DNA from: Pseudomonas syringae
GTDB taxonomy: Bacteria > Pseudomonadota > Gammaproteobacteria > Pseudomonadales > Pseudomonadaceae
Reading direction: 5' to 3'
NCBI RefSeq assembly: GCF_023278085.1
Contig: NZ_CP066265.1
Location: forward strand, 2,696,501 to 2,760,500
Length of the DNA: 64,000 nucleotides
Shown: positions 49,062 through 64,000 of the stretch, in pieces
Position numbering within the stretch: the stretch's first letter is position 1
Layout of the letters: each line of letters starts with the position of its first letter
Position numbers and translations under genes: made by a program
The notes under the pieces: model-generated
What the model saw: the letters and a program-made list of their open reading frames with translations, nothing else
What the model was told of the DNA's origin: nothing
Database searches by the model: none

Positions 49062-49667
49062 TCAGTCGTTTTCGGTCCAGTCGAAATCCATTTGCAGCGC
49101 AGTGCGCTCGGCCAGAGCACGGCTGTGCAAGCGCTCGACCAGATGCAGGCTCATGTCGATACCGGCGGAAATACCGGCCGATGTCACGAATGCACCCTCG
49201 TCTACCCAGCGCAACGTGCTGAGCACGTCCACCGAGGGGAACATTTCCTTGAGGTCGTCGATGTCTTCCCAATGCGTAGTGACCTGCTTGCCGGCCAGCT
49301 TGCCGGTCTTGGCCAGCATGAAGGCTCCAGTGCAGACCGCCGCGACCACACGCCCCGGTACTGACTGATCGCTGATCCAGCGAATGACGTCGGCTTTTTC
49401 CAGCTCGGCATTGACCACCCCGCCCGGCACGATCAGGCAGTCGATGGGAGGGTGATCACTGATGGAAAAATCCGGGTCGACTTTCAACCCTGCACGCGCG
49501 CGCACCGGCGTGATGCTGCGGCCAATGGTGAACACGTTGAACAGCGCCCGGTCATCGCGGCTGTTGCGCGCGTGCATGCGGGTTGCGGTGGTGAATACTT
49601 CGTAGGGGCCAGCGAAGTCGAGGACTTCGACGTCGTCGTAGACGTAGATACCGATATTGAGTGGCAC
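49062..49667 (-). CDS. DJ-1/PfpI-family protein
   Basis: A 201-residue class I glutamine amidotransferase-like protein. The nucleophile elbow is AAVCTGAF (C112), the nearby THWEDIDDL supplies His/Asp, and the N-terminal FAGPYEVF has the conserved acidic residue. Relatives include isonitrile hydratases and the sensor domains of GlxA/FtrA regulators. It is divergent from ftrA, whose N-terminal half has the same fold, so the two may work on the same metabolite. Confidence 0.87.
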   Translation of the reverse strand: MPLNIGIYVYDDVEVLDFAGPYEVFTTATRMHARNSRDDRALFNVFTIGRSITPVRARAGLKVDPDFSISDHPPIDCLIVPGGVVNAELEKADVIRWISDQSVPGRVVAAVCTGAFMLAKTGKLAGKQVTTHWEDIDDLKEMFPSVDVLSTLRWVDEGAFVTSAGISAGIDMSLHLVERLHSRALAERTALQMDFDWTEND

Positions 49668-49791
49668 GAGTTGGCTCCAGGGTCTGCTTGCCAGACCGCT
49701 TGCATGTTAATGTTTCACCTGGATTGCAGGTTACGCAGTAGCATCGAGGCAAACTACTGGCTGAAATGCCAATATCCGGTAACATCGCGCC

Positions 49792-50745
49792 ATGAAAAAT
49801 CATCTCGTCGTCGCCCTGATCTATAACCAGCTCTGCACCTTCGAATTTGGCTGCACGGTTGAGGTATTTGCCCTCAAACGACCCGAACTCGGGGTCAGCT
49901 GGTATGAGTTTGCGACCTACCCGGTCGACGACGGGCCGATCGCCGCGGCGGGCGGCATCACCATCGTGCCGACGCCGGGCGAAGTGCTGCTGGAAAATGC
50001 CGACACCATCATCGTGCCGGGCTGGCGCGGCGTTGAATCAGCGGTCCCACAGCGCTTGATCGAACAGCTTCAGGCTGCGCACGCACGGGGCGCGAGGATC
50101 TGTTCGATCTGCACCGGCGCCTTTGTGCTGGCGGCGGCCGGTCTGCTTGACGGGCACAAGGTCACCACCCACTGGCGTTACACCGATCTGCTGGCCAGCA
50201 TGTATCCGGGCCTGACCATCCAGCCCAACGAGTTGTATGTGGATCAAGGCACGATTGTCACCGCTGCCGGCTCGGCAGCCGGGCTGGACATGATGCTGCA
50301 CCTGGTGCGCAACGATCACGGGGCGCGTGTCGCCAACATGGTGGCGCAGCGCATGGTGATCCCGCCCCATCGCGAAGGCGGACAGTCGCAGTACGCCTCC
50401 CGGCAACTGGTGACCGCCAGCGACGGGCCGATTTCCAATTTGATGGACTGGATTCGCAGTGACCTGAAGCGGCCGCATACCATCAAGGACATGGCTTCGC
50501 GTGCAGCACTCAGTACCCGCACCCTACACCGCAGCTTCATGGAAAGCACCGGTCTGACACCCATCGACTGGCTGCTTGGCGAGCGCGTGGCCTACGCCAA
50601 GGAGCTGCTTGAATCCTCGAAACTGCGCCTCAACGAGGTGGTCGACCGGGCGGGTTTCGGTTCCGAAGAGTCGTTCCGCCGCCATTTCCGCAATCTGGTG
50701 GGAATCAGTCCGAGCAGTTACCGCAAGCAGTTTGCTCGGGTCTGA
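49792..50745 (+). CDS. ftrA: AraC-family regulator with DJ-1/PfpI domain (FtrA/GlxA type)
   Basis: A 317-residue protein with an N-terminal DJ-1/PfpI-like domain (residues ~5-170; ICTGAFVLAAAG, TTHWRYTDLL) and a C-terminal AraC HTH pair (SRAALSTRTLHRSFMESTGLTPIDWLLGERV, EVVDRAGFGSEESFRRHFRNLVGISPSSYRKQF). It is divergent from the PfpI gene. Its 3' end overlaps the convergent serine hydrolase gene by 41 bp, which closes the hydrazine-type operon; whether it regulates that operon is unknown. Confidence 0.88.
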   Translation: MKNHLVVALIYNQLCTFEFGCTVEVFALKRPELGVSWYEFATYPVDDGPIAAAGGITIVPTPGEVLLENADTIIVPGWRGVESAVPQRLIEQLQAAHARGARICSICTGAFVLAAAGLLDGHKVTTHWRYTDLLASMYPGLTIQPNELYVDQGTIVTAAGSAAGLDMMLHLVRNDHGARVANMVAQRMVIPPHREGGQSQYASRQLVTASDGPISNLMDWIRSDLKRPHTIKDMASRAALSTRTLHRSFMESTGLTPIDWLLGERVAYAKELLESSKLRLNEVVDRAGFGSEESFRRHFRNLVGISPSSYRKQFARV

Positions 50746-51883
50746 GATACAGCGCGTCGACCATGGCGTCGGCAAACTCGCCCCACGCGCCCGCTACGGC
50801 GGTGTTGGTGATGGCGACCAGGCTGATGGCCGACACCGGATCAACCCAATAATGACTGCCATACAGGCCGCACCATGACCAGGTGCCCGCGCCCTGCGGC
50901 TGCCCGGCGGCCAGCGGATCGCTCAGAATCATCGGCCCCAGGCCGAATTTCCAGCCCGGCCCACGGTTCTCGACAATCTTCTGGTCCATCGTGTTGCCCA
51001 GCAGTTGCCGGGTACTGGCAGGGTTCAGCAACGGCGCACCGCCCAGACGAAGACACTCCAGCACGCGAAGATAGTCATCCGCCGTGCCCAGCATGCCCGC
51101 CCCGCCCGACTCATAAGCCGTCGTGTCAAACGCGCGAGCCGAGGACAGCCGTGCCCATCCGCTGTCGAGCCTCAATACCTCGTTGTCGCCGATACGCTGC
51201 GGCCCGCGAGCGCCATCCTGGTAGGCAACGGCCAGCGGTTGACCCGGCCCATGACGGAATGAAGTCCTGCTCATGCTTAAAGGCTCAGTGACCCATCGGG
51301 CGACGGCGTCGGACAAGGGCATGCCGCAGGCCTGTTCGATCACCGCGCCCAGCACGTCGGTGGCCAGCGAATACCCCCACGCGCTGCCGGGCTCGAACAG
51401 CAATGGCAAGCGCGCCAGTCGCGCCAGGTTTTCGTGCAGGTCAAACGCTACACAATCCAGTCCGTCCGAGACGCCAGCCTGTTGATAGGCATTGCCGGGC
51501 GCTTGCTCGAAACCGTAGCTCAGGCCGGAGGTGTGCGACAGCAAATGCCGCAGGGTAATGACCGGCTCACGGCCATCTGCCAACCGTGGTCGAAAGGCTG
51601 GCAGCCAGTCAGTCAGCGCAGCGTCAAGACGCAGGACTCCCAGCTCGCACAGGCGCATCACCACGATGGACGTCAGCAGTTTAGTCAGTGACGCCAGGCG
51701 AAAGCGCGTGTTGCGGCAGACCGGAATCTGCCGCTCCCGATCAGCCCAGCCGCTGGCGCAGGCGTAACGCAACTCACCGTCCTGGGCCAGCAGCACAACC
51801 CCCCCGACGATCCGGCCCTGATCAATGAACCTCTGCCAGACCTGCGCCAGGCGCTGCACGGCGCTTTCATCGAGTTGCTGCAT
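50705..51883 (-). CDS. beta-lactamase-family serine hydrolase
   Basis: A 392-residue class C beta-lactamase/esterase-fold protein with SxxK (S65-L-T-K68), HTSGLSYGF, and a YSL triad at 171-173 in place of YxN; the C-terminal HYWVDP may supply the KTG-equivalent strand. It has no signal peptide, so it should be cytoplasmic. It is the last gene of the ten-gene operon, three bases after the alcohol dehydrogenase. Hydrolysis or transacylation of an ester or amide in the pathway product is possible; the substrate is unknown. Confidence 0.85.
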   Translation of the reverse strand: MQQLDESAVQRLAQVWQRFIDQGRIVGGVVLLAQDGELRYACASGWADRERQIPVCRNTRFRLASLTKLLTSIVVMRLCELGVLRLDAALTDWLPAFRPRLADGREPVITLRHLLSHTSGLSYGFEQAPGNAYQQAGVSDGLDCVAFDLHENLARLARLPLLFEPGSAWGYSLATDVLGAVIEQACGMPLSDAVARWVTEPLSMSRTSFRHGPGQPLAVAYQDGARGPQRIGDNEVLRLDSGWARLSSARAFDTTAYESGGAGMLGTADDYLRVLECLRLGGAPLLNPASTRQLLGNTMDQKIVENRGPGWKFGLGPMILSDPLAAGQPQGAGTWSWCGLYGSHYWVDPVSAISLVAITNTAVAGAWGEFADAMVDALYLRPEQTACGNCSD

Positions 51884-51886
51884 GCT

Positions 51887-53041
51887 TCAGCAACCATGAA
51901 CCGCACGGCTGAAAATCTGCGCGTACTCTGCCGCCGAATGGCGAATCGGGTTGGTGTGCGAACAGCCATCGGCAAACGCCATCTTTCCAACCCGCTCCGT
52001 ATCGCGATCATCAATACCGATGGCGGCCAGCGTGTGCGGAATGCCGATCTGCTCACGGAGGTCCAGCACCCACGCCATTACGCCTTTGAAACCCGGCTCG
52101 GGCAACCGCAGGTAAACCGCCAGATCCTCCATCTGGGTCAGCAGCGCCGAGCTGTTGGCGTGCAGCACATAAGGCAGCAGGATCGCGTTCAACAAACCAT
52201 GGTGCTGGTCATATAGCGCGCCGAGACTCTGTGCAATCGCGTGGACGCCGCCCAGGCCACGCTGAAACGCGGCGGCGCCCAGGCTTGAGGCCACCAACAT
52301 CTGCTGACGCGCCTCCAGATCCTGCCCGTCGGCAACCACGCGGGGCAGATACTGCTTGATCATCTGCATGCCCTTGACCGAGACCGCTTCGGCCATCGGG
52401 TGCCAGACCGGTGAGCACCAGGCCTCCATGCAGTGGGTCAACGCGTCGGCACCGGTGGCGGCAGTCAAATGCATCGGCAGGTCCAGCGTCAGCGTGGCGT
52501 CCAGAATCGCAATGCGCGGCATCATGCGGATGTGCAGGATCGTGCGTTTGACCTGTGCCAGCTCATCGGTGATGACCGACGCCCTGCCCACTTCCGAGCC
52601 AGTCCCGGCCGTGGTCGGCAAAGCGATGACCGGCGCGATGCCTTGCGGGTCGGCGCGCAGGTGATTCTGGCCGATGTCCTCGAAATCCCAGAGCGGGCGG
52701 GTCTGGCCGGACATCAGCGCCACGGCCTTGGCTGCGTCCAGCGCCGAGCCGCCGCCGAATGCAATGACGCCGTCGTAACCACCGGCGCGATAAGCCTCCA
52801 GCCCTTCGGCAACATTGCTGCCGGTAGGGTTGCCCTTGACCCGGTCGAACAGCCCGCAGTGGCCCAATTGGCTACGGCAGTCCTCCACGGCGGAGGCGAT
52901 CATGGCGGTACTGCCGAGAAAGCGGTCGGTGATCAATAACGGCCGCTTGATGCCTGTCACCCGACAGGCGTCAGCCAGCTCTGAGACGCGCCCTGCGCCG
53001 GCCCGGATTGAAGTCGGATAGTGCCAATCGTTGCTGTGCAT
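51887..53041 (-). CDS. iron-containing alcohol dehydrogenase (group III)
   Basis: A 384-residue Fe-ADH: FGGGSALDAAKA for NAD(P), PTTAGTGSEV, and metal ligands D199, H203 (GADALTHCMEA), H267 (GVHAIAQ) and H281 (YDQHHG), with the His-x13-His spacing typical of the family. It interconverts an alcohol and an aldehyde. Within this operon a plausible substrate is the aminoadipate semialdehyde that an Spb39-type oxidase would release; that is inference. Confidence 0.88.
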   Translation of the reverse strand: MHSNDWHYPTSIRAGAGRVSELADACRVTGIKRPLLITDRFLGSTAMIASAVEDCRSQLGHCGLFDRVKGNPTGSNVAEGLEAYRAGGYDGVIAFGGGSALDAAKAVALMSGQTRPLWDFEDIGQNHLRADPQGIAPVIALPTTAGTGSEVGRASVITDELAQVKRTILHIRMMPRIAILDATLTLDLPMHLTAATGADALTHCMEAWCSPVWHPMAEAVSVKGMQMIKQYLPRVVADGQDLEARQQMLVASSLGAAAFQRGLGGVHAIAQSLGALYDQHHGLLNAILLPYVLHANSSALLTQMEDLAVYLRLPEPGFKGVMAWVLDLREQIGIPHTLAAIGIDDRDTERVGKMAFADGCSHTNPIRHSAAEYAQIFSRAVHGC

Positions 53042-53077
53042 TGAGGTATTCCCTTGAAAATCGAGTCAGTCAGCGCT

Positions 53078-53722
53078 TCAGTGAAAGAAACCAGCGGGCA
53101 GCAGACCGATCAGCAGACGCAGGCCGAACGCGATCATGAAAAGCCCGGTGACAATGTCGATGGCTTTTTTCATGCGCTGATAGCGAACCTGCACGGCAGG
53201 AATCGAAAACAGCGTGGCCAGCAACACGAACCATGAGATGGCCAGCACCGCGATGATCGATACCCCTGCCGTGCGCACCCAAATCGGCATGCCCGGCGTG
53301 GTGACGGTGGTGAAGACGCTGGTGTAAAACGCCAGCGCCTTGGGGTTGGTCAGGTTGGTGAACAGGCCGAAGCGATAGGCGCGCCCGAGGCTGCCGATGC
53401 CCAGCGCGCCGATGTCCCTCGGCTTGGGCTGGCTGCCTGCGCTGCGCAGGCTTTTGCTGCCGAGCCAGGTCAGATAGGCACCGCCGAGCAATTGCAGGGC
53501 CGGTTGCAGCCAGGGCAACTGCTGAAAGATAAGCCCCAGCCCGGTGGCGGCCAGCAACGCCCAGAGAATGCTTCCCGAGGCCACGCCCAGCCCGGCGCAG
53601 ATTCCCTGCTGCCGGGACTGGCTGAATGACAGCTGGGTGATGACCAGAAAATTCGGCCCGGGACTGATGATCAGCACAATGAACGCGCCAGCCAGCGCCG
53701 TCAGTAATGTCAGTTCGTACAT
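53078..53722 (-). CDS. LysE/RhtB-family amino-acid exporter
   Basis: A 214-residue protein with six membrane segments and the family start LTLLTALAGAFIVLIISPGPNFLVITQ, then SRQQGICAGLGVASGS and NLTNPKALAFY. LysE-type proteins export basic or neutral amino acids. Placed between the alcohol dehydrogenase and FAD/NAD(P) genes of the operon, it is likely to export the pathway product or to relieve a toxic intermediate. Confidence 0.9.
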   Translation of the reverse strand: MYELTLLTALAGAFIVLIISPGPNFLVITQLSFSQSRQQGICAGLGVASGSILWALLAATGLGLIFQQLPWLQPALQLLGGAYLTWLGSKSLRSAGSQPKPRDIGALGIGSLGRAYRFGLFTNLTNPKALAFYTSVFTTVTTPGMPIWVRTAGVSIIAVLAISWFVLLATLFSIPAVQVRYQRMKKAIDIVTGLFMIAFGLRLLIGLLPAGFFH

Positions 53723-53747
53723 AGGTAATTCCTTTTTTATGAATGAG

Positions 53748-55499
53748 TTAAAGCACTTCTTTAAATGAGTGCGTGAAGTCTTCTGCTACGTGAGCTGCCA
53801 GCATTTCGAGGCATGACTCGACTGCCCGCCGCGCCTCGAGCAGCGCGTGGCAGGTGGGGTCTGGCGTAGGCACGTAATGGTTGTAAAACGTGCAGCCTTC
53901 GACGGCCGGGCCCAGCACCCAGAGCCTTGGCTGCGGCGAACCGTGACGACCAAGCGCACGGCCAGCCCGATCGGTTTCGATCCCGTCGGCGGGCCAGGCA
54001 TGTGCGGCGCGGATCAGCCCTTGCTCCAGCAAATCGCCAATCAGGCCGTGCGCATTAATCGACACGCCGCTGTGAGCAACCCGCGCCGTTATGACGCTGT
54101 CGACAAGCGGCCTTGACTGCTGTGCAGCGTCCACCGGCGGCAATACCGTCACTACACCCGCCGTGATTAACGCGAGCAGGTCTTCATGGCGCTCCTTTTG
54201 TGGCCCGCCGACCAGACGGTTCGACAGCCCGGCCCACGTGCTGTAGAAATCCAGGGTCGACGTCTCGGTCAGCCCGTTGCGTTCGGCGACCAGACGCAGC
54301 ACATCGCGGTAATCGCGCCAGACTTCCAGGGCCAGCCGGATCGGACTCTGTGCAGTGCCCAGCCGACTCAACGCCAGATCGCGCTCGATCCACGCGATAA
54401 ACCAGGCGGCATAGGCCGCTGCTGACCCGGACCAGCGCTCGGTCGCCAGCCACTCATCCGGGTCGAAGTCACCCCACTGCTCGGCCAGCCTTGCAAACAA
54501 CGCAGGCCTCGACGTCGCTTCACGCAGCAGTTGCTGAACTGACTGCACATGCCGGGGCGCTTCAATACGGGCTTTGGCCTGATAGAACACCGCGCGCATT
54601 TCATCCTTGATCAGCGGCAGCACGTCGCGCCGGAAATCCAGTTGCCCGGCAGGCCTTTGCTGGCGCAAGCCGTTGATGGCCTCTGCGGTAAGGAATAGCC
54701 GTGGCAGCGCCGCCTGACTGTCGGGGTGCCCGTGTGGCCGGGCGTGAAACGGCAGCCCCGAACGCGAATACAGAAACACCTGGGGCTCGCGTCCAGACGG
54801 CAGGTATCGCCAGCCGGCAAAACCACCATCGCGCACGTATCGCCCGCCACGACCCTGGGTAAGGCTGGCCAGCGTGTCCATGGCGGTCAGCCCGAGCCCT
54901 TCGATCGCAACCGTTTCGCCGATCACCTGCTGTTCTGCGGGTTCTACAGCGTGCCCGCTGGTCAGGAACACAGCGTCAACAGACATCTGGCGCTGCTGGC
55001 TGCGCAGCCTGAAACCGTTCGCGTCGGGCAGCAAGCGGCAGGCGGTCACCTGCTCGGCGTAATGGCGCACCCGCACGTGTGCCGGGCACTGTTGCAGCAG
55101 GAAGCGGTAACTGTCCTGCAAGTAGCGACCCAACAAGCGACGCGGCACGAAATCCCCGAACCCGACAGGCCTGCCCTGACCGTCGATGCAGACGTGGCCA
55201 CGCTCATCCAGACGAACGCCACGCGCGCTGCACCACTGCAGAAAGGTCCAGCCCGCTGGCTCACAGGCAGGAAACGCGGAGGAAAACGCTGACAGTTGGC
55301 CCGCCATGGTATTGAGCATCAGGTAATCCGGCTGCTGCGCATGATGCAAGCCACTGCCCGGCAGCTGCGGATCGAACACTTCGATATGCAGTGGCTGCTG
55401 ACCGGCGTGACGGCTCATGCCGATCAACTGCTCCAGAATGCTCAGCCCTCGTGACCCCATGCCGATGATCGCAACGGTATGCGTATGCATGGCCATCAC
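53748..55499 (-). CDS. FAD/NAD(P)-binding protein (NAD_binding_9 family)
   Basis: A ~583-residue flavin/nicotinamide-binding protein. The Rossmann motif IIGMGSRGLSILEQL lies at the N-terminus, followed by VFDPQLPGSGLHHAQQPDYLMLNT and PRRLLGRYLQDSY, and a second nucleotide region around EGLGLTAMDTLA. The C-terminal GHGLIGDLLEQGL and GPAVEGCTFYNHYVPTP are typical of this poorly characterised group. It overlaps the SbnA-SbnB gene by four bases (GTG at 55499, ATGs at 55496 and 55490 possible). The function is unknown; an oxygenase or desaturase in the pathway is conceivable. Confidence 0.8.
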   Translation of the reverse strand: MMAMHTHTVAIIGMGSRGLSILEQLIGMSRHAGQQPLHIEVFDPQLPGSGLHHAQQPDYLMLNTMAGQLSAFSSAFPACEPAGWTFLQWCSARGVRLDERGHVCIDGQGRPVGFGDFVPRRLLGRYLQDSYRFLLQQCPAHVRVRHYAEQVTACRLLPDANGFRLRSQQRQMSVDAVFLTSGHAVEPAEQQVIGETVAIEGLGLTAMDTLASLTQGRGGRYVRDGGFAGWRYLPSGREPQVFLYSRSGLPFHARPHGHPDSQAALPRLFLTAEAINGLRQQRPAGQLDFRRDVLPLIKDEMRAVFYQAKARIEAPRHVQSVQQLLREATSRPALFARLAEQWGDFDPDEWLATERWSGSAAAYAAWFIAWIERDLALSRLGTAQSPIRLALEVWRDYRDVLRLVAERNGLTETSTLDFYSTWAGLSNRLVGGPQKERHEDLLALITAGVVTVLPPVDAAQQSRPLVDSVITARVAHSGVSINAHGLIGDLLEQGLIRAAHAWPADGIETDRAGRALGRHGSPQPRLWVLGPAVEGCTFYNHYVPTPDPTCHALLEARRAVESCLEMLAAHVAEDFTHSFKEVL

Positions 55500-57616
55500 C
55501 AGCGGCTCGATTCAAAGAAGAATCGCGGCACAGGCACTGCACTGCCCTCGGCCAGCGCCTGCTGATACAGCCGCTGCCCCACTGCGAGGTCCAGCACGCC
55601 GAGGCCAAACGGCGAGAAGATCGAGGCTCGATCCGGGGCCAGCTCTACCTGCCCGGCCATCAGCTGCGCCAGCGTGCCGGTGATGAACGAGCGGTCCCGG
55701 TACTGCTGAACGGCCAGATCAGGGGACGTCTGCGCCTTGAGGCAGTGCTCGACGTCATCCAGGATGTTGTTGGCCTGAGCAATCACCTCCGGCCCGAGAT
55801 CACGCAGGGAAATATTCAGCAGCAATTGCCCCGGCCGGAAGATCGGCTCCAGTACATAAGGGCTGGGCGCAGTGGTGGCGAACACCACCACGTCGGCTTG
55901 CAGGCAGTCGTGTAAATCAGCCGCCTCGCTGCGCAGTTGATGGCAACCGGCAGCATGTTTGATCAGGGCCAGCATCGAATCTTCGTGCTGATCGAAGACG
56001 CTGACCGTGTCCATGCTCCAGCCGTCGCTGACGAACATGTCGAGGATGGTCCGGGCAATGAACCCGGCACCCACGAAGGCCATTCGCCCGACATGACGCT
56101 GTTGCCGATTCATCCAGCGCGCGCCCAGTACGGCTGACGCTGCTGTACGCATGGCGCTGATTCGCGAGGCTTCCAGGCAAGCGAAGGCATAGCCGGTCAG
56201 AGGATCATTGAGAATCAACACCGCAGACGCACGTTGCAGACCACTCTCGACATTGCCCGGAAAACTGGAGATCCACTTGATGCCACTGACTGGCTGATCC
56301 CCCGTCAGGCTGGCCGGCAGCGCGATGATGCGATTGGCCGGTGCTTCGGGAAAGCGCAGAAAATAGCTGTCAGGGTTGATCGTGCGACCGGCTTCGTGGT
56401 CCAGATAAGCCGTCTGCACGTCGTCGATACAGGCCAGAGGATCAGCGGCCAGCAGGCGCGCAACCACTTCCCCATCGACCACATGAAACGGTGCACGCTT
56501 CAAGCGCTCGGCAGCCAGCCAAACGGTCCATGACGAAAAATCCGGTGGCAACGAGCTTGCTCGCGAAGGCGTCATGCCTGAACCACCGCTTTCGCGAGCA
56601 AGCTCGCTCCCACAAAGGGCTGGGGCTGCGGGTGGCACTGAGAGGTCTGCCAGGGTCATGTTCAGCACGTCGCGCCCGAAACGCTGCTCGACCCAATGAT
56701 CGTCGTACAGCGTATCCAGATAGCGCTCGCCCCAATCCGGCGATAACGCCACCACCACCGCACCCGGCTCGATACGCTCGCGCCAGGCATGCACGGCTGC
56801 AATCACTGTTGCGGTCGAGCCGCCGACCAGCAGGCCTTTGCTGCGCGCCAGAATGCGGCACATGGCGACGGTATGCGCTTCCGGGACCATTTCCAGCGCA
56901 TGAATGCCGTCTGAGTTGAAGATCGGCGGGCGCTGGCTGGTGCCCAGCCCCGGGATGAAACGTCGACTGGCCGGCGCGCCAAACGTCACCGAACCGACGC
57001 TGTCCACAGCAATGATCCGGGTGGTCGGATGATGACGCTGAAAATGCTGAATGCAGCCCATCAGCGTGCCGGTGGTGCCCGCCCCCACAAAAAGGTAATC
57101 CACATGACCGAAATGCCGACTGATCGAACTCGCCGTAGTCCGCGCATGGGCGCGCGGATTGGCAGCGTTTTCATATTGATTGAGCCAGACGTAACGCGGA
57201 TCACCGGCCACCTTGTGGCGAATCAGCTCAATGCGTGTGCCCAGAAAACCGCCGTTGGCATCCGGGGTTTCCACCTGAATGACCTCGGCCCCGTAACTGC
57301 GCATCATGCGGATGTTGTGGCTGGAACTGTTGGGATCGACCACGCAGGTAAACGCAATGCCGCGCTCGGCGCAGATCATCGCCAGCGCTACGCCGAGATT
57401 GCCTGACGACGACTCGATCAGAATCGTCTCGGGCCCCAGCAGACCGCGCGCCTGCACGTCATTGATCAAGCCGACAGCCGTCTTGAGTTTGATGGAGCCC
57501 GCCGGGTTGAGCGACTCCATTTTCAGGAAAAAGTCGAGCCCCAGGCCGGTGACTTTCAAAAAGGCCTGATCGTGAACGATTTCGCAGAGGCTTTGGTATT
57601 CGGAAGCTGTGTGCAT
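55496..57616 (-). CDS. fused SbnA-SbnB-like diaminopropionate synthase
   Basis: A 706-residue fusion. Residues 1-325 are a PLP-dependent cysteine synthase-like SbnA domain (PLP lysine K43 in NPAGSIKLK, ESSSGNLGVALA, VGAGTTGT). Residues 363-706 are an SbnB-like ornithine cyclodeaminase-fold domain with NAD motif FVGAGFIARTI (514-524). In staphyloferrin B and viomycin-type pathways SbnA makes N-(2-amino-2-carboxyethyl)-glutamate from O-phosphoserine and glutamate, and SbnB converts it to L-2,3-diaminopropionate. The linker at ~335-358 (CGSELARES ... SRASSLPPD) is encoded by a REP pair. The ATG at 57616 is used, as the upstream frame lacks homology. Confidence 0.87.
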   Translation of the reverse strand: MHTASEYQSLCEIVHDQAFLKVTGLGLDFFLKMESLNPAGSIKLKTAVGLINDVQARGLLGPETILIESSSGNLGVALAMICAERGIAFTCVVDPNSSSHNIRMMRSYGAEVIQVETPDANGGFLGTRIELIRHKVAGDPRYVWLNQYENAANPRAHARTTASSISRHFGHVDYLFVGAGTTGTLMGCIQHFQRHHPTTRIIAVDSVGSVTFGAPASRRFIPGLGTSQRPPIFNSDGIHALEMVPEAHTVAMCRILARSKGLLVGGSTATVIAAVHAWRERIEPGAVVVALSPDWGERYLDTLYDDHWVEQRFGRDVLNMTLADLSVPPAAPALCGSELARESGGSGMTPSRASSLPPDFSSWTVWLAAERLKRAPFHVVDGEVVARLLAADPLACIDDVQTAYLDHEAGRTINPDSYFLRFPEAPANRIIALPASLTGDQPVSGIKWISSFPGNVESGLQRASAVLILNDPLTGYAFACLEASRISAMRTAASAVLGARWMNRQQRHVGRMAFVGAGFIARTILDMFVSDGWSMDTVSVFDQHEDSMLALIKHAAGCHQLRSEAADLHDCLQADVVVFATTAPSPYVLEPIFRPGQLLLNISLRDLGPEVIAQANNILDDVEHCLKAQTSPDLAVQQYRDRSFITGTLAQLMAGQVELAPDRASIFSPFGLGVLDLAVGQRLYQQALAEGSAVPVPRFFFESSRW
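56546..56612. repeat. in-frame REP pair (BIME) inside the SbnA-SbnB gene
   Basis: TGGCAACGAGCTTGCTCGCG at 56546 and its inverted partner TTCGCGAGCAAGCTCGCTCC at 56591 form two facing P. syringae-type REP sequences about 23 bp apart. On the coding strand they begin GTGGGAGCGAGCTTGCTCGC, the usual REP consensus. They contribute the linker between the two enzyme domains without stop codons. Confidence 0.85.
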
Positions 57617-57621
57617 AAGGG

Positions 57622-58944
57622 TCACTTCCACTGTGCCAGCAAGGGTGCATCGGCTACCGGTTCGACGGCCTGGCCGAGGGCATTGGCAATACGTTCGGCA
57701 CGCAGCGCCATCAACGAGAACGACTGGCTGTCGCTGATCCCGTGGCTGCGCTCGGAGAGGCCATTGACCCAGATATTCACGTCGCACTCGCCCTCGGTTG
57801 CGACGCGGTAATCGCGATCGATCAGCAAGCCGCCGTCCATCCCGGTTTTCAGCCACGGCTGTAATCCACTCAGCAGCGGCGGCAAAAGGTGTTGCTGGTA
57901 TCCAGTGCCGAGTACCAGCGCATCGACTTCGAGTACCTGATTACGTTGGCTGAAAGTGTCGGTCAGCACGATCCGATAGCCGTCGGCGGTTTGCTCGATG
58001 CCGCTGATCACGCTGTAGGCGTAGGTCTGCAAGCGTTTGCGACCGGCGATGGCGTCCTCGTAGATCAGCGAAAACAGCTTCTGGCTTTCATCCGGGTCGA
58101 TACCGGCGTAGTTAGTCGAACGGCTCCAGTCGAGGAAGCGCTGGCGTGCCGCAGGGTCCAGGCTGTGGAAGTAATCGACATGATCCGGAGCGAACACCCG
58201 GTTGGGAAACTGGCCCAGTTGCGTGAGTTTGAAACCGGCAGAACGATGCACTGAATGCACTTCAATGTCGGAGCGACGGCTGACCAGCTCCAGCACCGAC
58301 TCGCTGGCGCTTTGCCCTGAGCCGAGCACCAGCCAGCGCTGAGGCAGTTGTTCGCCCAACGCTTGCAGGCGGGTCAGAAACTGCGAGGTATGAAACAGCC
58401 GCGGGCCAAGCAAGGCCCGAAACGGCTCAGGGATATACGGCGCGCTACCACTGGACAACACCAGATTGCGCGCGGTGAAGCTGGCGTCCGGCGTGCGAAC
58501 CCGTACTTCGTGCAAGCGGCCGTTGCGGATCACCGGGTCAATGTCGGAGACCGGTGCGTTGAATCGCGTCTGGCTGTCCACCTGCCTGGACACCCAGTTC
58601 AGGTAATCCGACCATTCATGACGACTGGCCGGACGGCCCAGCAGGCCGAAATCGAACATCCGTCCTTTATCTTTGAGGTACATGGCGAAGGAAAAACGGC
58701 TGCGCGGATTGCGTGGCGTCACCAGGTCACGAAAGACATGGTGATTAATGTCTGTTCCGGCCAGCAGCAGCTCGCGGTGCCATTGGCTGTCGGGAGCGGC
58801 TTCCAGATAACGCAGGGAGAGTCTGGCCAGCGGGTCATTCGCTTCCCGTGCGTCCTCGAACGCACAGGCCAGCGCAATCCCGGCGGGGCCGAACCCGATA
58901 CAGATGGCGTCCGAATGAAAAGAATGTGGTGTCGAGTTGCCCAT
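57622..58944 (-). CDS. L-lysine/L-ornithine N-monooxygenase
   Basis: A 440-residue flavoprotein of the IucD/PvdA/SidA family: FAD motif CIGFGPAG (17-22), substrate/FAD segment FRDLVTPRNPRSRFSFAMYL, NADPH motif LVLGSGQSASE (207-215) and ALVLGTGY near the C-terminus. It hydroxylates the side-chain amine of lysine or ornithine. Lysine N6-hydroxylation is the first step of Spb-type hydrazine synthesis, and no siderophore synthetase is visible here. It is five bases upstream of the SbnA-SbnB gene. Confidence 0.88.
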   Translation of the reverse strand: MGNSTPHSFHSDAICIGFGPAGIALACAFEDAREANDPLARLSLRYLEAAPDSQWHRELLLAGTDINHHVFRDLVTPRNPRSRFSFAMYLKDKGRMFDFGLLGRPASRHEWSDYLNWVSRQVDSQTRFNAPVSDIDPVIRNGRLHEVRVRTPDASFTARNLVLSSGSAPYIPEPFRALLGPRLFHTSQFLTRLQALGEQLPQRWLVLGSGQSASESVLELVSRRSDIEVHSVHRSAGFKLTQLGQFPNRVFAPDHVDYFHSLDPAARQRFLDWSRSTNYAGIDPDESQKLFSLIYEDAIAGRKRLQTYAYSVISGIEQTADGYRIVLTDTFSQRNQVLEVDALVLGTGYQQHLLPPLLSGLQPWLKTGMDGGLLIDRDYRVATEGECDVNIWVNGLSERSHGISDSQSFSLMALRAERIANALGQAVEPVADAPLLAQWK

Positions 58945-58984
58945 GTGGTTCCGGTCCTTAGAAGTGTTTTGAAACGTTGAGTAT

Positions 58985-59959
58985 TCAGTCGGTAGCGGCG
59001 CTCAGCCCGGCAGGCCCGAGCTTCCAGAGGCGGGCCGAAGCGGTTCGGCATTCGCCCTGATCGAAACTGACCGTGCCCATCGGCGTGCTGAAGGTGCTGT
59101 GATGAAGCGCGTTCAGCAGTGCCTGTCCACGCTCGGTGCTACTGGCCAGAATGGCCAGTACGTGGAGCATCAGCAGGCTTTCGCGGAAGTAGGTGTGCGG
59201 TTCAGCGGCGAACAGCGCCCGGTGCCATGCACTTGCCGGGCAGTGGTGACTGTCAGGCGTGTCGAAACCGATGACGTAGGTGTTGCGGTCGTGGGCCGGG
59301 GCACAGCCTAAATGCGGCGACGCGGCGTCGTCGGTCAGCACCAGCGGCCGAACGCTGCCGGCCTGGCGGCGTGCCTGCCAGTGCTCGCGACTGGCATTGA
59401 GACGTCCGGCAAATACCTCCACATCAGCGCTGTCCCGGTCGCTGACGCGCTTCAGGCCTGCTGCGGCGAGCGCTTCACCAATCGCTGCAGCCAGTGCCTG
59501 ACCGTGTGCGCTGCCATCGGCATCAACCTGCACAGACCTCCACCGTCGAGCCGCCAGCCAGCGCACCAGATCGCCCGCCAATTGGCGGTCCGAGGGGCAG
59601 AAACGAAAGACATTGCGATGTTCCTGGGTCAACCGGTCGATGGTGGCCGCCGGCGTCAGCAGCGCAATACCGGCCTGCTCATAGCGCGGCGCAGCACCGA
59701 TGGACGCGTCGGATGAAAAGTGACCGATCCCCAGATCGGCCTGCCAGTCGATCATGTGCTGCGCCACCTCGGCGCCACGCGCAGCGTCGGCACCGTCGTC
59801 GATAAAGTGCCACTGCACCTGTGCCAGTTCCGGTATGCAATTACGCGCCACCGCCAGTGCGCGCATGAAGGTCCGTGCATGCGGCGTTGCGGCGGGGTCG
59901 AACAGCGCGCTGACGCCGACGCGTAGCCCTGTTGTCATGGGCATGAACGGCAACATCAC
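58985..59959 (-). CDS. leucine-binding-protein-like protein without signal peptide
   Basis: About 324 residues of the type I periplasmic-binding fold (Peripla_BP_6/AmiC-like): ITVGVSALFDPAATPHARTF-like start, GIGHFSSDASIGAAPRYEQAGIALLTPAATIDRLTQ, FRFCPSDRQLAGDLVRWLAARRW, and YVIGFDT. It lacks a signal peptide, so it is probably cytoplasmic, as is AmiC, a ligand sensor. It overlaps the FAD oxidase gene by four bases (GTG 59959; ATG 59956 possible). A sensing or ligand-carrying role for an amino-acid-like pathway compound is suggested; no partner antiterminator is seen. Confidence 0.75.
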   Translation of the reverse strand: MMLPFMPMTTGLRVGVSALFDPAATPHARTFMRALAVARNCIPELAQVQWHFIDDGADAARGAEVAQHMIDWQADLGIGHFSSDASIGAAPRYEQAGIALLTPAATIDRLTQEHRNVFRFCPSDRQLAGDLVRWLAARRWRSVQVDADGSAHGQALAAAIGEALAAAGLKRVSDRDSADVEVFAGRLNASREHWQARRQAGSVRPLVLTDDAASPHLGCAPAHDRNTYVIGFDTPDSHHCPASAWHRALFAAEPHTYFRESLLMLHVLAILASSTERGQALLNALHHSTFSTPMGTVSFDQGECRTASARLWKLGPAGLSAATD

Positions 59960-61074
59960 GGCTGCACGCTCTCACGCTGCGGCGACAGCGCTGACCAACC
60001 GGAACAGGCCCCCTGACTGCCACGCAACCGGCCAAGCAGCTGGTCGCAGGCAATCTGTGCGATGCCGGGCGCAAACTTGAACCCCAGCCCGGACATGCCC
60101 GCAGCCAGATAAACCGGACTCTGCTCATCGCAGAAGCCCAACAACGGACGGCCATCGACGCTGTAGCTGTCGAAACCCGGCAACACATCCAGCACCCGTG
60201 CATTTGTTGCTGAACCGCACAGCTGGTTGATGCGCTTGCAGGCATCTTCGGCATGCCGCGCATCGGGCTGTGCCAGGTCCTCCGGCCACAAAGCGCTGTC
60301 GCGCAGCCCGCAGCCGGTCTGCACGATGTTGCGGGTCAGCGGTATGGCATAGCTCTGGGCGACGGCATCAATGATCGGCATCGACCAATCGCTGTCAGTC
60401 AACACGCGTGCCAGCGGGATCGAACGCACGTCCAGCTCCGCCTGCGGCACCAGATGCCCGCTCCAGGCCCCCGCCGCGACCACCACGGCCCTACAGCGCA
60501 GTGTCGCGTCACCCAATTCGATGTCCACCCGGTCGCTTGCGCGGCGCTCGATTGCCTTGATGTCGCGGTGTTCCAACAACAAACCTTGCTGGCGCACCTC
60601 TTGGCACAGCGCCGCGACGGCCAGCCGCACATTACCGACGCACGCGTTCGGCTCGAACAGGTTGACTCTTGCTTCGTCTGCGCACTGCGGGTAGCGGCCG
60701 CCGTTGAGTTCGTGACTGGCCAGCAGACGCATCGGATAACGCGCGCTGGCGTGCTGTTCAATGGCGTTGCACAGCGTTTCCAACTGATCGGCAGCGGCAC
60801 GGTAAATGACCCCGGTGCGCCGCAATGCGCTGGCGTAGGTGGTGGCGAAGACGCCCTCGTGCATCCGGTCGATGGACAAGGCGGCCAGCTCCATCAACAG
60901 CGGATCGGTGTCGTACAGCCGCACCAGCCCGCCGGAATAGCTGCTGGCCCCCAGGCTTGCGGCAGAGCCCTTGTCGACAAGCGCCACCGACACACCCGCG
61001 CTGCACAGTTTCGCCGCGATGCTGGCACCGGTTATCCCGGCGCCAATCACCGCAATCTCATAATCGAGGAACAT
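59956..61074 (-). CDS. FAD-dependent amino-acid oxidase-like protein (Spb39-like)
   Basis: A 372-residue DAO-family flavoprotein: AVIGAGITGASIAAKL at the N-terminus, SSYSGGLVRLYD, AVVVAAGAWSGHLV, and C-terminal DGRPLLGF and YLAAGMSGLGFKFAPGIAQI. In Spb-type pathways an enzyme of this family oxidatively cleaves the lysine-hydrazine conjugate to release the hydrazino acid and aminoadipate semialdehyde. The gene is 14 bp downstream of the MetRS-like gene, matching that role. Glycine oxidase-type activity is an alternative. Confidence 0.82.
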   Translation of the reverse strand: MFLDYEIAVIGAGITGASIAAKLCSAGVSVALVDKGSAASLGASSYSGGLVRLYDTDPLLMELAALSIDRMHEGVFATTYASALRRTGVIYRAAADQLETLCNAIEQHASARYPMRLLASHELNGGRYPQCADEARVNLFEPNACVGNVRLAVAALCQEVRQQGLLLEHRDIKAIERRASDRVDIELGDATLRCRAVVVAAGAWSGHLVPQAELDVRSIPLARVLTDSDWSMPIIDAVAQSYAIPLTRNIVQTGCGLRDSALWPEDLAQPDARHAEDACKRINQLCGSATNARVLDVLPGFDSYSVDGRPLLGFCDEQSPVYLAAGMSGLGFKFAPGIAQIACDQLLGRLRGSQGACSGWSALSPQRESVQP

Positions 61075-61088
61075 GATGGTGGGTCCGT

Positions 61089-62588
61089 TCAGATGGAGTA
61101 TTCAGCGGCCGAGCCGTTCATGAGCGTGGCGTTGACCCGGTTTTCGGGCAGCCCGAATGCCGTCACGATGCGCGCTGACATGTCCGGGATCAGCGCCTTG
61201 CCCGCCAGGGCAATGAACGCTGCCAGATGACTGACCGGACGGTCTTCGGCGAGCCGCGTGCGGGTGATGGCAATCACATCCAGCAGCACCTGAGCCAGGC
61301 CTTTCATGGAGAACTGCGCAGGTTCGGCAGCCCTGCTCCACTGCAGGCGAAGCGCCTCAAGCAGACCGGCATCCGCCCCGCAGATCCCGCTCCACCAGCT
61401 GTGATCGTGGTTTTTCCCGGCCTCCAGCAAGGCGGGGAAAAACTCGTCGAACAGCTCTTTGCGCCATTGTTTAAAGCGTTGCAGGCGGAAATCGCCCTCA
61501 CTTTCTTCGGGCGCGATGCTGGCCAGGTACAAGCGCGCACTGTCGGCACAGGCTTCGCGTGCCAGGTCGCCGACCCAGATCGCGTGATTACGACTGGTGG
61601 ACAGGTTCAGGCCATCAAGTTTGAGAAACTGATTGGGCATGAAACGCTGCTGCACCTTGATGTCACGCAGCGCCGACAGTTGCGCCGGGTAGACCACGGC
61701 GTGACTGAACACACAGTCGAAGCCGAGAAAATGCACCAACGTGCCCTGCCCCGACTGCCAGTACTGGCGAAACAGCTCCGGACGTCCAACCTTGTCAGCG
61801 TATTCACGAAACGCCGCCATGTAACCGGCCAGCCCCATGAACCAGGTGTGTACGCGGCATGAGCCGTCGGCGTGCAGGTCGAGACCTCCGTCACCCGGAC
61901 GCGTCACGCCCCAGTCATGCAAGTGCTCCAGCGTGTCGCGCAGCCAGCCATCGAGAGGCTTGCGCCACTGACGCCCAAGCAGCCGCTCGCTCAGCAGTGG
62001 CTTGAAGGCCGCCAGCTTGAGAAAGGCGCGATGAGCGGTTTTCCAGTGCGACGGCTGTTTGCAGAGCTTGCAGTGCAGCCCGGTCATCAGCTCGGCATCA
62101 GGGGCCTGGGCGCAGTTTTCGCATTGACTGGCATCGGACTCGGCACCGCAGTAGTTGCAGTGCCCCCGGGCGAACGCTTCGTAACCCCAGACCTCGCAGT
62201 CAGGGCAGTAAGGTTCGCTGGCGTCGCGATACTCGATCAAACCTGCGTCGCGCAACGTATTGAAGACTTCAGCGACCGCCTCGGCGAACCATGGATTGTT
62301 GTAGGGGCGCATCCAGTGATCAGGCTGGATATTGATCGCCGCGAGCGAAGCCTCGATGCGGTCCGAGTTACGATTGGCCAGCGCCACCGGGTCGACATCC
62401 AGTTCCCGCCCCTTGCGCAGCATGTAGGACTGGTAGTCATCCGAGTAGGACACCAGCACACAGTCGTGGCCGCGCTGACGCTGAACGCGGGTAAATACGT
62501 CAGCGGCCAGAAACGGCCCGGCGATATGGCCGATATGCAGATCGCCGTTCGGGGTCGGCGGCGTGATCGTGACAATGAACTTAGTCAT
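61089..62588 (-). CDS. MetRS-like protein (hydrazine synthetase half)
   Basis: A 499-residue class I tRNA synthetase-fold protein. HIGH is intact (GDLHIGHIAG, 18-21) and four CxxC pairs (C128/131, C144/147, C156/159, C173/176) form the MetRS zinc knuckle. The KMSKS loop is degenerate (LNLSTSR, 327-333) and the C-terminal anticodon domain looks reduced, so it is unlikely to be housekeeping MetRS. In Spb40/PyrN/Tri28-type enzymes a cupin fused to a MetRS-like domain forms an N-N bond between N6-hydroxylysine and an amino acid. Here the cupin is a separate gene overlapping by eight bases. The ATG at 62588 is chosen; a longer frame to 62624 is inside the cupin gene. Confidence 0.82.
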   Translation of the reverse strand: MTKFIVTITPPTPNGDLHIGHIAGPFLAADVFTRVQRQRGHDCVLVSYSDDYQSYMLRKGRELDVDPVALANRNSDRIEASLAAINIQPDHWMRPYNNPWFAEAVAEVFNTLRDAGLIEYRDASEPYCPDCEVWGYEAFARGHCNYCGAESDASQCENCAQAPDAELMTGLHCKLCKQPSHWKTAHRAFLKLAAFKPLLSERLLGRQWRKPLDGWLRDTLEHLHDWGVTRPGDGGLDLHADGSCRVHTWFMGLAGYMAAFREYADKVGRPELFRQYWQSGQGTLVHFLGFDCVFSHAVVYPAQLSALRDIKVQQRFMPNQFLKLDGLNLSTSRNHAIWVGDLAREACADSARLYLASIAPEESEGDFRLQRFKQWRKELFDEFFPALLEAGKNHDHSWWSGICGADAGLLEALRLQWSRAAEPAQFSMKGLAQVLLDVIAITRTRLAEDRPVSHLAAFIALAGKALIPDMSARIVTAFGLPENRVNATLMNGSAAEYSI

Positions 62589-62973
62589 CGAGGCACCCCG
62601 TGGTCTCGCTGTGCTGCGCGACAAAGGCGTTGACGTAGTTCATGTCCCACCACACCACGTAAAAATGGAAGTCCTCGGCAGAATCGTTAATGACGTAATG
62701 ATGGGTGTGCTTCGGAATCGCGGCGATGTCGCCCACGTTGAACTCCATCTGCCTGTCCCCCACCACAAGCCGGGCGCTGCCCTTGATGGCAATGAAGATT
62801 TCCTGGTCGATCTGGGTGTGCGTTTCGCTGCGGGTGCCAGGGCGGACCACGCACCAGCCGCCCGCAAACGGCATCGGGTAGCCGTCCCACGGCAATAGGC
62901 GGCTGCCATCGAGGCCGTATTCTGGCACCAGCGCATCGAACGCGGTTTTACGGTGTATATCGAACTTTTCCAT
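62581..62973 (-). CDS. cupin protein, partner of the MetRS-like enzyme
   Basis: A 130-residue single cupin: PGTRSETHTQIDQEIFIAIKG (ligand positions H52, Q54/D56, E58) and GDIAAIPKHTHHYVIND (H91 or H92). The first HxH is HTQ, a deviation. In known hydrazine synthetases this domain rearranges the O-acylated hydroxylysine ester to the hydrazine. The stop TAA at 62581-62583 overlaps the MetRS-like start (GATGACTAA). It is the first gene of the operon. The start at 62973 (MEKFDIHRKT) follows GGAAAAGAG. Confidence 0.85.
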   Translation of the reverse strand: MEKFDIHRKTAFDALVPEYGLDGSRLLPWDGYPMPFAGGWCVVRPGTRSETHTQIDQEIFIAIKGSARLVVGDRQMEFNVGDIAAIPKHTHHYVINDSAEDFHFYVVWWDMNYVNAFVAQHSETTGCLDD

Positions 62974-63268
62974 GCTCTTTTCCGTACGTTTCCAAGTGCG
63001 GCAAAGCATGAAATTGTTACTGGATGCTGGCTATCTGATTGGCGGGTACGTCAGGGGCGAGAAATCGAATTTGCGGATGGCTGTCGACACAACCAAGCTT
63101 GCTATCTTTTTTGCTAATGGCTGGTATCGATAACGCTAATAATTGAATCGAGGAGGGTGATGTTACCGTTGGCGGCGATGAAACGAACACTTCTTCCAGC
63201 CCTGCGAATCCGCGTCGCAAGGCCGCTGAATCTCTGCTCTGCTTCATCACTCCTTTGGTTAGATCTTT
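62974..63268. other. upstream region of the operon with a possible small + transcript
   Basis: No firm gene in this 295-bp gap. On the minus strand it should hold the operon promoter; CAGTAACAAT near 63020 resembles a -10 element but no convincing -35 was found. On the plus strand GAGGAGG (63150-63156) precedes a short frame from ATG 63160 (36 codons to 63270), but the spacing is too tight for confident start choice. The strong plus-strand terminator just after suggests that something here is transcribed. Confidence 0.4.
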
Positions 63269-63303
63269 AAGCCACCTCACGTTGCGTGAGGTGGCTTTTT
63301 TTT
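63269..63303 (+). terminator. strong rho-independent terminator
   Basis: AAGCCACCTCACG pairs with CGTGAGGTGGCTT (13 bp) around a TTG loop and is followed by a run of T to 63303. It is the best canonical terminator in the window, oriented for plus-strand transcription, with no assured gene before it. It also lies 19 bp beyond the integrase stop. Confidence 0.9.
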
Positions 63304-63321
63304 GCTCGGCAGTCAGGCTGC

Positions 63322-64000
63322 TTACAGATCAAACCCGTCCACAACGTTGCGACGTTCATTTTCGCTGCGCATGTCGTAGCTGGCGGTGGTCGAGATATGC
63401 GTGTGATGGGCCAGCTTCTGAGCAATCGACAAATCATATTCTTCGATCACCCGGGTGATGAACGAGCGACGAAAGTCGTGGGGCATGATGTTGACCCCGA
63501 CCTCACGGCCACGCTGCTTGGCGATGAAATAGATAGCGTGTTTGGTGATTCGCTCGCGGGTGATATGGCTGCCCCGCCGAATACGGTTGAACAGGAACGG
63601 GTCATCGCCCTGCCCCGGCTGCAGGCACGAGCGACGCAATTCCAGCCAGTCATTCAGCGCCTTGAACGCCCATTCCGGAGCGTATTTGATCAACTGTTTA
63701 TTGCCTTTGCCCAGCACCCGCAGGCTGCGCTCGGCAAAGTCGATCTGCGACAGGTCGAGGTTCACCGACTCGGACTTGCGCATGCCTGATCCATACAAAA
63801 TGGCGATGATTGCAGCGTCGCGCCGCCCTTGAGGCCGCGGGTCCGCCGCGCAGGCTTGCATCAGCTCGCGGATCAGGGTGCGGCGAATATTACGCCCTTT
63901 GGCCAGCCGCGTGCCGCTTACCGGCTTGATCGAGCGGATTTTCAACAACTGGTCATGCGTGATCAGGTCGTGCCGCCAGGCCTCGTTCATCACGCCGCGA
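63322..64000 (-). CDS. tyrosine recombinase/integrase (partial, 5' end missing)
   Basis: The frame is open to the window edge, so the start is outside. The catalytic domain is intact: first Arg in GSGMRKSE, a Lys in the GKGNKQ beta hairpin, PHDFRRSF (HxxR), AHHTHIST (His) and the nucleophile Tyr in TTASYD. It is XerC/phage-type. Its position next to the hydrazine-type operon suggests that the operon may lie in or at the end of a mobile or island region; no attachment repeat or tRNA was seen at this edge. Confidence 0.85.
   Translation of the reverse strand, partial: RGVMNEAWRHDLITHDQLLKIRSIKPVSGTRLAKGRNIRRTLIRELMQACAADPRPQGRRDAAIIAILYGSGMRKSESVNLDLSQIDFAERSLRVLGKGNKQLIKYAPEWAFKALNDWLELRRSCLQPGQGDDPFLFNRIRRGSHITRERITKHAIYFIAKQRGREVGVNIMPHDFRRSFITRVIEEYDLSIAQKLAHHTHISTTASYDMRSENERRNVVDGFDL

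Follow-up and report, generated by a model that had tools for sequence, protein, structure and literature searches.

A 64,000-nucleotide stretch of Pseudomonas syringae DNA (contig NZ_CP066265.1, positions 2,696,501 to 2,760,500; hereafter the window), lying within a 5.6-Mb genome, encodes a run of ten minus-strand genes (window positions 50705-62973). In this run the genes for a methionyl-tRNA synthetase (MetRS)-like protein and a cupin, together a putative hydrazine synthetase, are accompanied by those for a predicted L-2,3-diaminopropionate (Dap) synthase and a homologue of the N-oxygenase FzmM. All ten open reading frames (ORFs) are open at the following coordinates:

62581..62973, minus strand: cupin of 130 aa (Cupin_2; metal-ligand positions H52-Q54-E58-H92), predicted N-N-forming rearrangement enzyme
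61089..62588, minus strand: MetRS-like protein of 499 aa (tRNA-synt_1g; NF008859, 881 bits), predicted to activate an amino acid as its adenylate and pass it to a hydroxylamine as an ester
59956..61074, minus strand: DAO-family flavoprotein of 372 aa (DAO; PF01266), predicted to cleave one hydrazine C-N bond oxidatively
58985..59944, minus strand: LivJ-like amino-acid-binding protein of 319 aa (Peripla_BP_6), predicted to be cytosolic
57622..58944, minus strand: PF13434 N-hydroxylase of 440 aa (Lys_Orn_oxgnase; Arg72; one-residue loop insertion, Gln407; closest solved chain 5cqf), predicted short-diamino-acid type
55496..57616, minus strand: SbnA-SbnB fusion of 706 aa (PALP and OCD_Mu_crystall; TIGR03945 and TIGR03944 above cut-offs), predicted Dap synthase
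53748..55490, minus strand: FzmM/CreE-like class B N-oxygenase of 580 aa (NAD_binding_9; homology to 8cp2; Asp396 for Asn413), with a predicted altered substrate chamber
53078..53722, minus strand: predicted LysE/RhtC-type amino-acid exporter (LysE, PF01810; RhtC model 139 bits, under its 288 cut-off)
51887..53041, minus strand: iron-type alcohol dehydrogenase (Fe-ADH; PF00465 and PF25137)
50705..51883, minus strand: beta-lactamase-family serine hydrolase (PF00144)

The distances between successive genes (-8, 14, 11, 40, 5, 5, 25, 36 and 3 bp) suggest that the ten genes form a single operon and transcript. Ten minus-strand genes with overlaps or short gaps had been reported in a preliminary description of this DNA. 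This description is confirmed as an observation, at distances from -8 to +40 bp, and supported in part as an interpretation. The domains found agree with its protein labels, but its 'FAD/NAD(P)-binding' protein is an aspartate N-hydroxylase homologue and its 'lysine/ornithine' hydroxylase does not carry the residues common to the solved lysine and ornithine enzymes. As it had stated, neither a nonribosomal peptide synthetase (NRPS) nor an NRPS-independent siderophore (NIS) synthetase is encoded among the ten genes, on which ground a siderophore operon was ruled out. A search for riboswitch control gave no Rfam match at gathering score in positions 48000-64000, and promoter and terminator scans performed no better than on shuffled sequences (2 versus 2.6 and 9 versus 10.6, respectively).

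The nearest named relatives of the window MetRS-like protein belong to the Pseudomonas syringae group. A genome scan yielded 361 confirmed MetRS-like matches, the best 80 of which constitute the set of related loci (L numbers below). Matches to the cupin are present in 76 of these loci, to the hydroxylase in 74, to the DAO protein in 69 and to the binding protein in 68, and all four occur together with the MetRS-like protein and SbnA in 52 of the 80. Every locus with SbnA (52/52) also carries the cupin, DAO, binding-protein and hydroxylase genes, and the FzmM-like gene is found in 50 of the 52. SbnB is also seen in 51, the contig of L019 stopping after SbnA. The two SbnA loci without the FzmM-like gene are L019, where the contig ends, and the rearranged L003 (P. 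syringae pv. cilantro), in which an inversion affects the distal half of the operon (L003:14757-21500), the FzmM-like gene lies outside the stretch and SbnB is shortened. The operon is a real, conserved gene set. It is provisionally placed as a variant among the hydrazine-synthetase clusters, marked by a probable Dap building block and by an FzmM-like enzyme that was not expected.

The MetRS-like protein shares 25% identity with the housekeeping MetRS of its own genome. A tree of 38 proteins has one branch (100/100; 100% of 200 bootstrap trees) that parts 31 MetRS-like proteins encoded in clusters, selected from the 80, from seven housekeeping MetRS proteins. All seven housekeeping sequences derive from genomes also represented by a MetRS-like protein, and an eighth (L113) is missing from the tree. 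The preliminary description had made its reading depend on a protein distinct from the housekeeping enzymes, which the separate clade bears out, and a housekeeping or duplicated MetRS is ruled out by this clade and the 25% identity. The HIGH motif and the Asp of the amino-acid site are retained, while NLSTS replaces KMSKS; the solved homologue 9l8v reads FSTG there. In PyrN the ATP-binding motif has a lysine, K458.

A MetRS-like part and a cupin, an N-hydroxylase in the cluster and an invariant cupin Glu are likewise features of the hydrazine synthetases PyrN, Spb40, Tri28, Apy9 and the stand-alone RHS1 (PMC8664883, PMC11705231), and the Spb, Tri and Apy clusters include a DAO-family protein, as does the window operon (PMC11705231). 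By analogy with PyrN and RHS1, an ATP-dependent ester would be formed by the MetRS-like part and rearranged to an N-N linkage by the metal-binding cupin (PMC8664883). The window differs from these systems, to which it is likened by their published descriptions, in its two separate genes, its Gln as second metal ligand and its LSTSR replacing the KMSKS motif; assignment of the MetRS-like protein and cupin to the hydrazine synthetase type is provisional given the variant His position. Relative to the known clusters it also adds the Dap synthase, the FzmM-like oxygenase and the LivJ-like protein. That the product bears an N-N bond is considered quite likely.

The metal is bound by Asp63, His65, Glu69 and His103 in RHS1 and by His50, His52, Glu56 and His90 in PyrN (PMC8664883). 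The equivalent positions of the window cupin are His52, Gln54, Glu58 and His92 (HQEH), a set found in all 51 loci with both SbnA and SbnB and in L019, and in none of the 24 other loci, whose cupins show HHEH (10), HNEH (10), FHEH (3) or YHEH (1). The second position is Gln in 52 of 52 SbnA loci and Asn (10) or His (14) elsewhere, and the invariant Glu (RHS1 E69, PyrN E56) is kept in the window as Glu58 and in 76 of 76 locus cupins. The second His ligand (RHS1 H65, PyrN H52) is not present in the window cupin, Gln54 taking its position; its loss is treated as a variant feature because the residue named as invariant for the family is the Glu rather than this His (PMC8664883). The closest solved chain to the window cupin is 4mv2 (plu4264), a His form, and RHS1 (5UQP) is absent from its PDB matches at E 0.1.

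The SbnA-SbnB fusion was confirmed as a genuine single ORF, with both domains above curated cut-offs (SbnA, TIGR03945, 408 versus 350 bits; SbnB, TIGR03944, 410 versus 327 bits), and it is the sole SbnB match of the window genome at E 1e-10. Among the 51 loci with both domains, these are fused in 31 and separate in 20. SbnA and SbnB of staphyloferrin B biosynthesis and the Pseudomonas fusion PSPTO_2960 belong to the same families, the window fusion standing apart in a gene run devoid of NIS and NRPS enzymes. The initial proposal of one gene run combining a MetRS-like/cupin pair that likely forms N-N bonds with a Dap synthase and an exporter of the amino-acid type is supported.

Within the fetched stretches, genes of one transaminase BLAST cluster are found in none of the 52 SbnA loci and in 17 other loci, none of which carries SbnA. 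Three of these genes were scored: that of Photorhabdus exceeds the diaminobutyrate-transaminase cut-off (419 versus 402 bits), that of a gammaproteobacterial bin falls just under it (395 bits), and that of Sediminibacillus scores best as another aminotransferase. In Photorhabdus and Serratia (L052, L056) the transaminase and its hydroxylase are located upstream of the core genes and the other hydroxylase downstream. The SbnA-carrying clusters form one clade in the MetRS-like tree (100/99), with Photorhabdus and Serratia as its sister (98/97). Unlike the window, the transaminase-type relatives L059, L063 and L064 hold genes identified by reading as NRPS adenylation-type.

Over 27 pocket and motif positions, chosen by the numbering of Escherichia coli MetRS, the window MetRS-like protein is identical to those of eight SbnA-less loci, six of which have a transaminase-like gene, the one difference being position 330, within the KMSKS region, where the window has Leu and the eight have Phe. 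Since the pocket is alike in the window and in these eight loci, the switch appears to lie on the hydroxylamine side, although the pocket evidence covers part of the transaminase loci only. The same near-identity of the pocket disfavours activation of Dap by the MetRS-like protein.

The PF13434 hydroxylase has Arg72 where PvdA, KtzI, MbtG and SidA share a Lys (KDL), and its loop is longer by one residue. In ornithine N-hydroxylases this Lys contacts the substrate, and the Arg and longer loop would suit a shorter substrate. A tree of 58 hydroxylase rows, for which eight of 65 family members were dropped for length and others among the 74 matching loci were missed in ORF calling, contains two main clades, one linked to the transaminase (10 of 11 rows; the stretch fetched for the eleventh, L061, stops 360 bases past the hydroxylase) and one with SbnA. 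Among the 53 SbnA-linked rows, 52 combine the Arg with an inserted loop Gln, the remaining row (L049) being cut short; in the transaminase-linked sister clade, all 11 rows combine it with an inserted Gly. Five other rows retain the Lys and have no loop insertion; four rows (L062, L070, L071 and L074) fall outside both clades. No second PF13434-like hydroxylase was found in the window genome at E 1e-10, though solved PvdA matches the same query far better, and this genome may be without PvdA.

These features bear on the pathway favoured by the preliminary description, in which N6-hydroxylysine and glutamate or glycine would give a hydrazino acid, as in the Spb and Pyr systems, for subsequent coupling to Dap. 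The gene types are those of Spb38/39/40 (PMC11705231). The Arg72 and the extra loop residue argue against this route, as does the match of the MetRS-like pocket to six clusters with a diaminobutyrate-transaminase-like gene. A lysine-derived donor and a glutamate partner are both weakened, the hydroxylase differing at two sites in the manner of the transaminase-linked sister clade and the pocket matching those of the eight SbnA-less clusters, and this version is regarded as unlikely.

The only PDB sequence match at E 0.01 of the protein first labelled 'FAD/NAD(P)-binding' is 8cp2, an FzmM-type L-aspartate N-hydroxylase (phmmer E 9.3e-46). Its model (pLDDT 87.9) also finds 8cp2 as the best Foldseek match (E 1.6e-40; TM 0.81 over 627 alignment columns) and has the aspartate N-hydroxylase fold, including the helical substrate domain. 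In 27-29 of 29 operon homologues the equivalents of Arg13, Asn62, Arg266, Arg409, Arg412 and Arg416 are retained. Alignment is poor at the Arg276 position, which is Ala in the window, and Arg577 lies outside the alignment. The equivalent of Asn413 is Asp in 19 of the 29, Glu in eight and Asn in two, the window enzyme having Asp396. In 8CP2 the N413E substitution abolishes aspartate hydroxylation (PMC10404684). The added acid would suit the side-chain ammonium group of Dap, and that Dap or one of its derivatives is the substrate of this enzyme is judged somewhat more probable than not. While homologous to FzmM/CreE in sequence and fold, with most chamber Arg residues kept, the window enzyme differs by Asp/Glu at 413 and by its SbnB neighbour, and no CreD-like lyase was seen. 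Use of aspartate by this enzyme as a source of nitrite, which would then diazotise the hydrazine, would be in keeping with the supply of nitrite to N-N pathways by the FzmM/CreE family (PMC10404684, PMC11705231), but is very improbable given the Asp/Glu in 27 of 29 homologues, the effect of N413E and the absence of a CreD-like lyase from the ten genes.

A survey of 398 Pseudomonas genomes (thresholds: MetRS-like E 1e-60, FzmM-like 1e-40, SbnB 1e-60) identified MetRS-like matches in 29, FzmM-like matches in 49 and SbnB matches in 42, with all three together in 28 genomes, that of the window included. Eleven genomes encode the FzmM-like protein and SbnB without the MetRS-like protein, and in all 11 the two genes are side by side by their coordinates. 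Nine stretches were fetched, covering five of the 11 (L098-L101 and L105); SbnA is also adjacent in each of the five, and their 20 kb contain no match to the cupin, to the MetRS-like, DAO or binding protein or to the hydroxylase. The occurrence of this cassette without hydrazine genes indicates that SbnA, SbnB and the oxygenase constitute a module of its own, and the window operon appears to be this module joined to a hydrazine core. Position 413 is Asp in these five, and also in L102 and L103. A MocR-type regulator gene lies on the downstream side of the cassette in the three stretches tested for it (L098, L099 and L101), and a permease-like gene is present in L099, the sole stretch whose copy was run against Pfam. 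L102 has a similar FzmM-like neighbourhood, where SbnA and SbnB are present just as short ORF pieces.

Enzymes of the SbnA type act on an activated serine, to which they add an amine. The hydrazino acid itself, rather than glutamate, might be added by SbnA to the aminoacrylate, with SbnB freeing beta-hydrazinoalanine, and the fusion would then channel the intermediate. This course is improbable, as SbnA-SbnB and the oxygenase occur without a hydrazine synthetase gene in the five fetched 20-kb stretches, so that glutamate is the likelier nucleophile.

Of the 25 NCBIfam families shown, there is none whose cut-off the DAO protein reaches, and its identity as a ThiO glycine oxidase was rejected (83 bits versus a cut-off of 251). 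Apy10, a DAO relative, cleaves the hydrazine in its pathway (PMC11705231). In 65 of the 69 DAO loci the binding-protein gene comes immediately after that of the DAO protein. No signal peptide is apparent, as judged by eye, in any of 68 binding-protein N-termini, and the ten genes include none for an ATP-binding cassette transporter, leaving the LivJ-like protein without transporter partners within the operon. Its model (pLDDT 93.8) has as best PDB folds the Leu/Ile/Val- and gamma-aminobutyrate/Ala-binding proteins, also glutamate-receptor binding domains, and the first-lobe motif is conserved. The protein may serve as a cytosolic holder of a reactive hydrazine amino acid. In the Rhizobium and Kordia clusters a serine O-acetyltransferase-like gene lies directly behind the binding-protein gene (L062:13903-14742, L063:13669-14397).

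Taken from the gene content and residue patterns above, the proposed reading is that the operon would make Dap, N-oxygenate it, link one Dap nitrogen to the amine of another small amino acid and export the small N-N-bonded amino acid so formed; to this reading a probability of roughly 0.5 is assigned. The SbnA-SbnB fusion would synthesise Dap, which would be hydroxylated by the FzmM-like oxygenase; the acidic residue replacing Asn413 would accommodate the additional ammonium group, found in Dap at the place of the aspartate carboxylate. A second amino acid would be adenylated by the MetRS-like protein and converted to an O-acyl-hydroxylamine ester. Rearrangement of this ester to the N-N product would be the task of the Gln-liganded cupin, and a hydrazino acid, for example beta-hydrazinoalanine, would remain once the DAO protein had cleaved one C-N bond. 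For the PF13434 hydroxylase the role would be either a further N-oxidation or the conversion of Dap to the hydroxylamine in its own right. The reactive amino acid would be bound or handed on by the LivJ-like protein, and the product would leave the cell through the RhtC-like carrier, a type of carrier that suggests a free small amino acid. The simplest history is replacement of a diaminobutyrate cassette by a Dap cassette, SbnA, SbnB and the FzmM-like oxygenase having taken the place of the diaminobutyrate transaminase and its hydroxylase of related clusters, with either the FzmM-like or the PF13434 enzyme as hydroxylamine source. Such a swap implies that the hydrazine synthetase likely joins the N-N bond onto Dap, although for Dap as one partner in that bond the odds are put at about even.

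Several observations weigh against this proposal. The SbnA clusters being a single clade (100/99), the co-segregations represent one or a few events and not 52. The transaminase loci L056, L060, L063, L065, L066 and L069 differ from the window at 1-4 pocket positions, and L072, L075, L078, L080 and L082 at more. Loss of the second His removes zinc in RHS1 (PMC8664883), and the window cupin is without that His. Residue 413 follows SbnB imperfectly, as L103 has Asp with no SbnB match in its genome, and L055 and L057 have SbnA and SbnB but Asn. The cassettes that occur without a MetRS-like gene show that the FzmM-like enzyme can function without N-N formation. The same hydroxylase type is present in Photorhabdus and Serratia with no SbnA above the cut-off in three of three genomes (best 295 versus 350 bits); the PF13434 hydroxylase therefore need not act on Dap. 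Diaminobutyrate is moreover available to the window strain, whose genome encodes two other diaminobutyrate transaminases above cut-off.

These last two points, together with the 11 of 398 genomes in which SbnB and the FzmM-like protein lack a MetRS-like companion, and with the link drawn in a review between Por9 of Pseudomonas orientalis and N5-hydroxyornithine (PMC11705231), would also fit a pathway of two arms. The core genes would then make a hydrazine from diaminobutyrate or ornithine produced elsewhere, SbnA-SbnB and the FzmM-like enzyme would separately N-oxygenate Dap, and the halves would be joined later or both be products. The gene run has no obvious ligase for joining the halves, and where SbnA-SbnB appears, the fetched stretches lack the transaminase-like gene that related clusters carry; this alternative is possible but rather doubtful. 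Returning to the Dap-joining proposal, its fullest form is put at less than even odds: that the swap re-aimed a hydrazine synthetase by bringing in SbnA-SbnB and an FzmM-type Dap N-oxygenase, that the cupin gained its Gln ligand, that a LivJ-like chaperone and export of a beta-hydrazinoalanine-type product would be found in much of the P. syringae group, and that the same Dap oxygenase would also be at work without hydrazine genes in other Pseudomonas.

LysE-type and iron-type alcohol dehydrogenase genes also adjoin the Burkholderia copies L033 and L034, where the dehydrogenase identity is 58-59%, and matches to the serine hydrolase are confined, among the 80 loci, to the Pseudomonas loci L003-L018 and L020-L032. 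Outside the run, a LysR-type regulator identified by reading (window 47878-48948) is readable just in two overlapping frames (47878-48948 and 48483-48845), and a LysR-like gene is also close to the Burkholderia copy L033. A tyrosine-recombinase-type gene, likewise identified by reading (63322-63993), runs past the window edge, and its BLAST family occurs in 17 of 81 compared stretches, the window included.

Hydroxylamine donors other than lysine have precedents in Apy9-11 (actinopyridazinone), with diaminobutyrate, and in Por9-11 (P. orientalis por), with N5-hydroxyornithine (PMC11705231). Compared by description only, these clusters have one named synthetase each, and the consulted portion of the review mentions no Dap synthase, FzmM-like enzyme or binding protein for them (PMC11705231). 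In the literature searched, parts of papers included, no description of the window operon was found, the nearest being the 2011 table entry for PSPTO_2960, given there as a fusion with the product 'Unknown' (PMC3179956). Several findings go beyond the preliminary description: a second N-oxygenase, of FzmM type; the cytosolic location of the binding protein; the unusual ligand in the cupin; the departure of the hydroxylase from the lysine and ornithine enzymes; and the occurrence of SbnA, SbnB and the oxygenase as a cassette without hydrazine genes.

If the proposed reading is true, solved structures would need to be re-read: 5cqf, a lysine 6-monooxygenase by its deposition, and the cupin 4mv2/4q29, whose deposition bears its locus name. 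The FzmM relative would represent a new activity, Dap N-oxygenation, and the cupin an altered metal site in an N-N-forming enzyme, while the cytosolic binding protein behind the DAO protein would be a component unmentioned in the cited literature on these clusters, as far as the consulted portions extend. A function would thereby be provided for a gene set that is widely shared among plant-associated Pseudomonas and for which the literature searched gave no described product.

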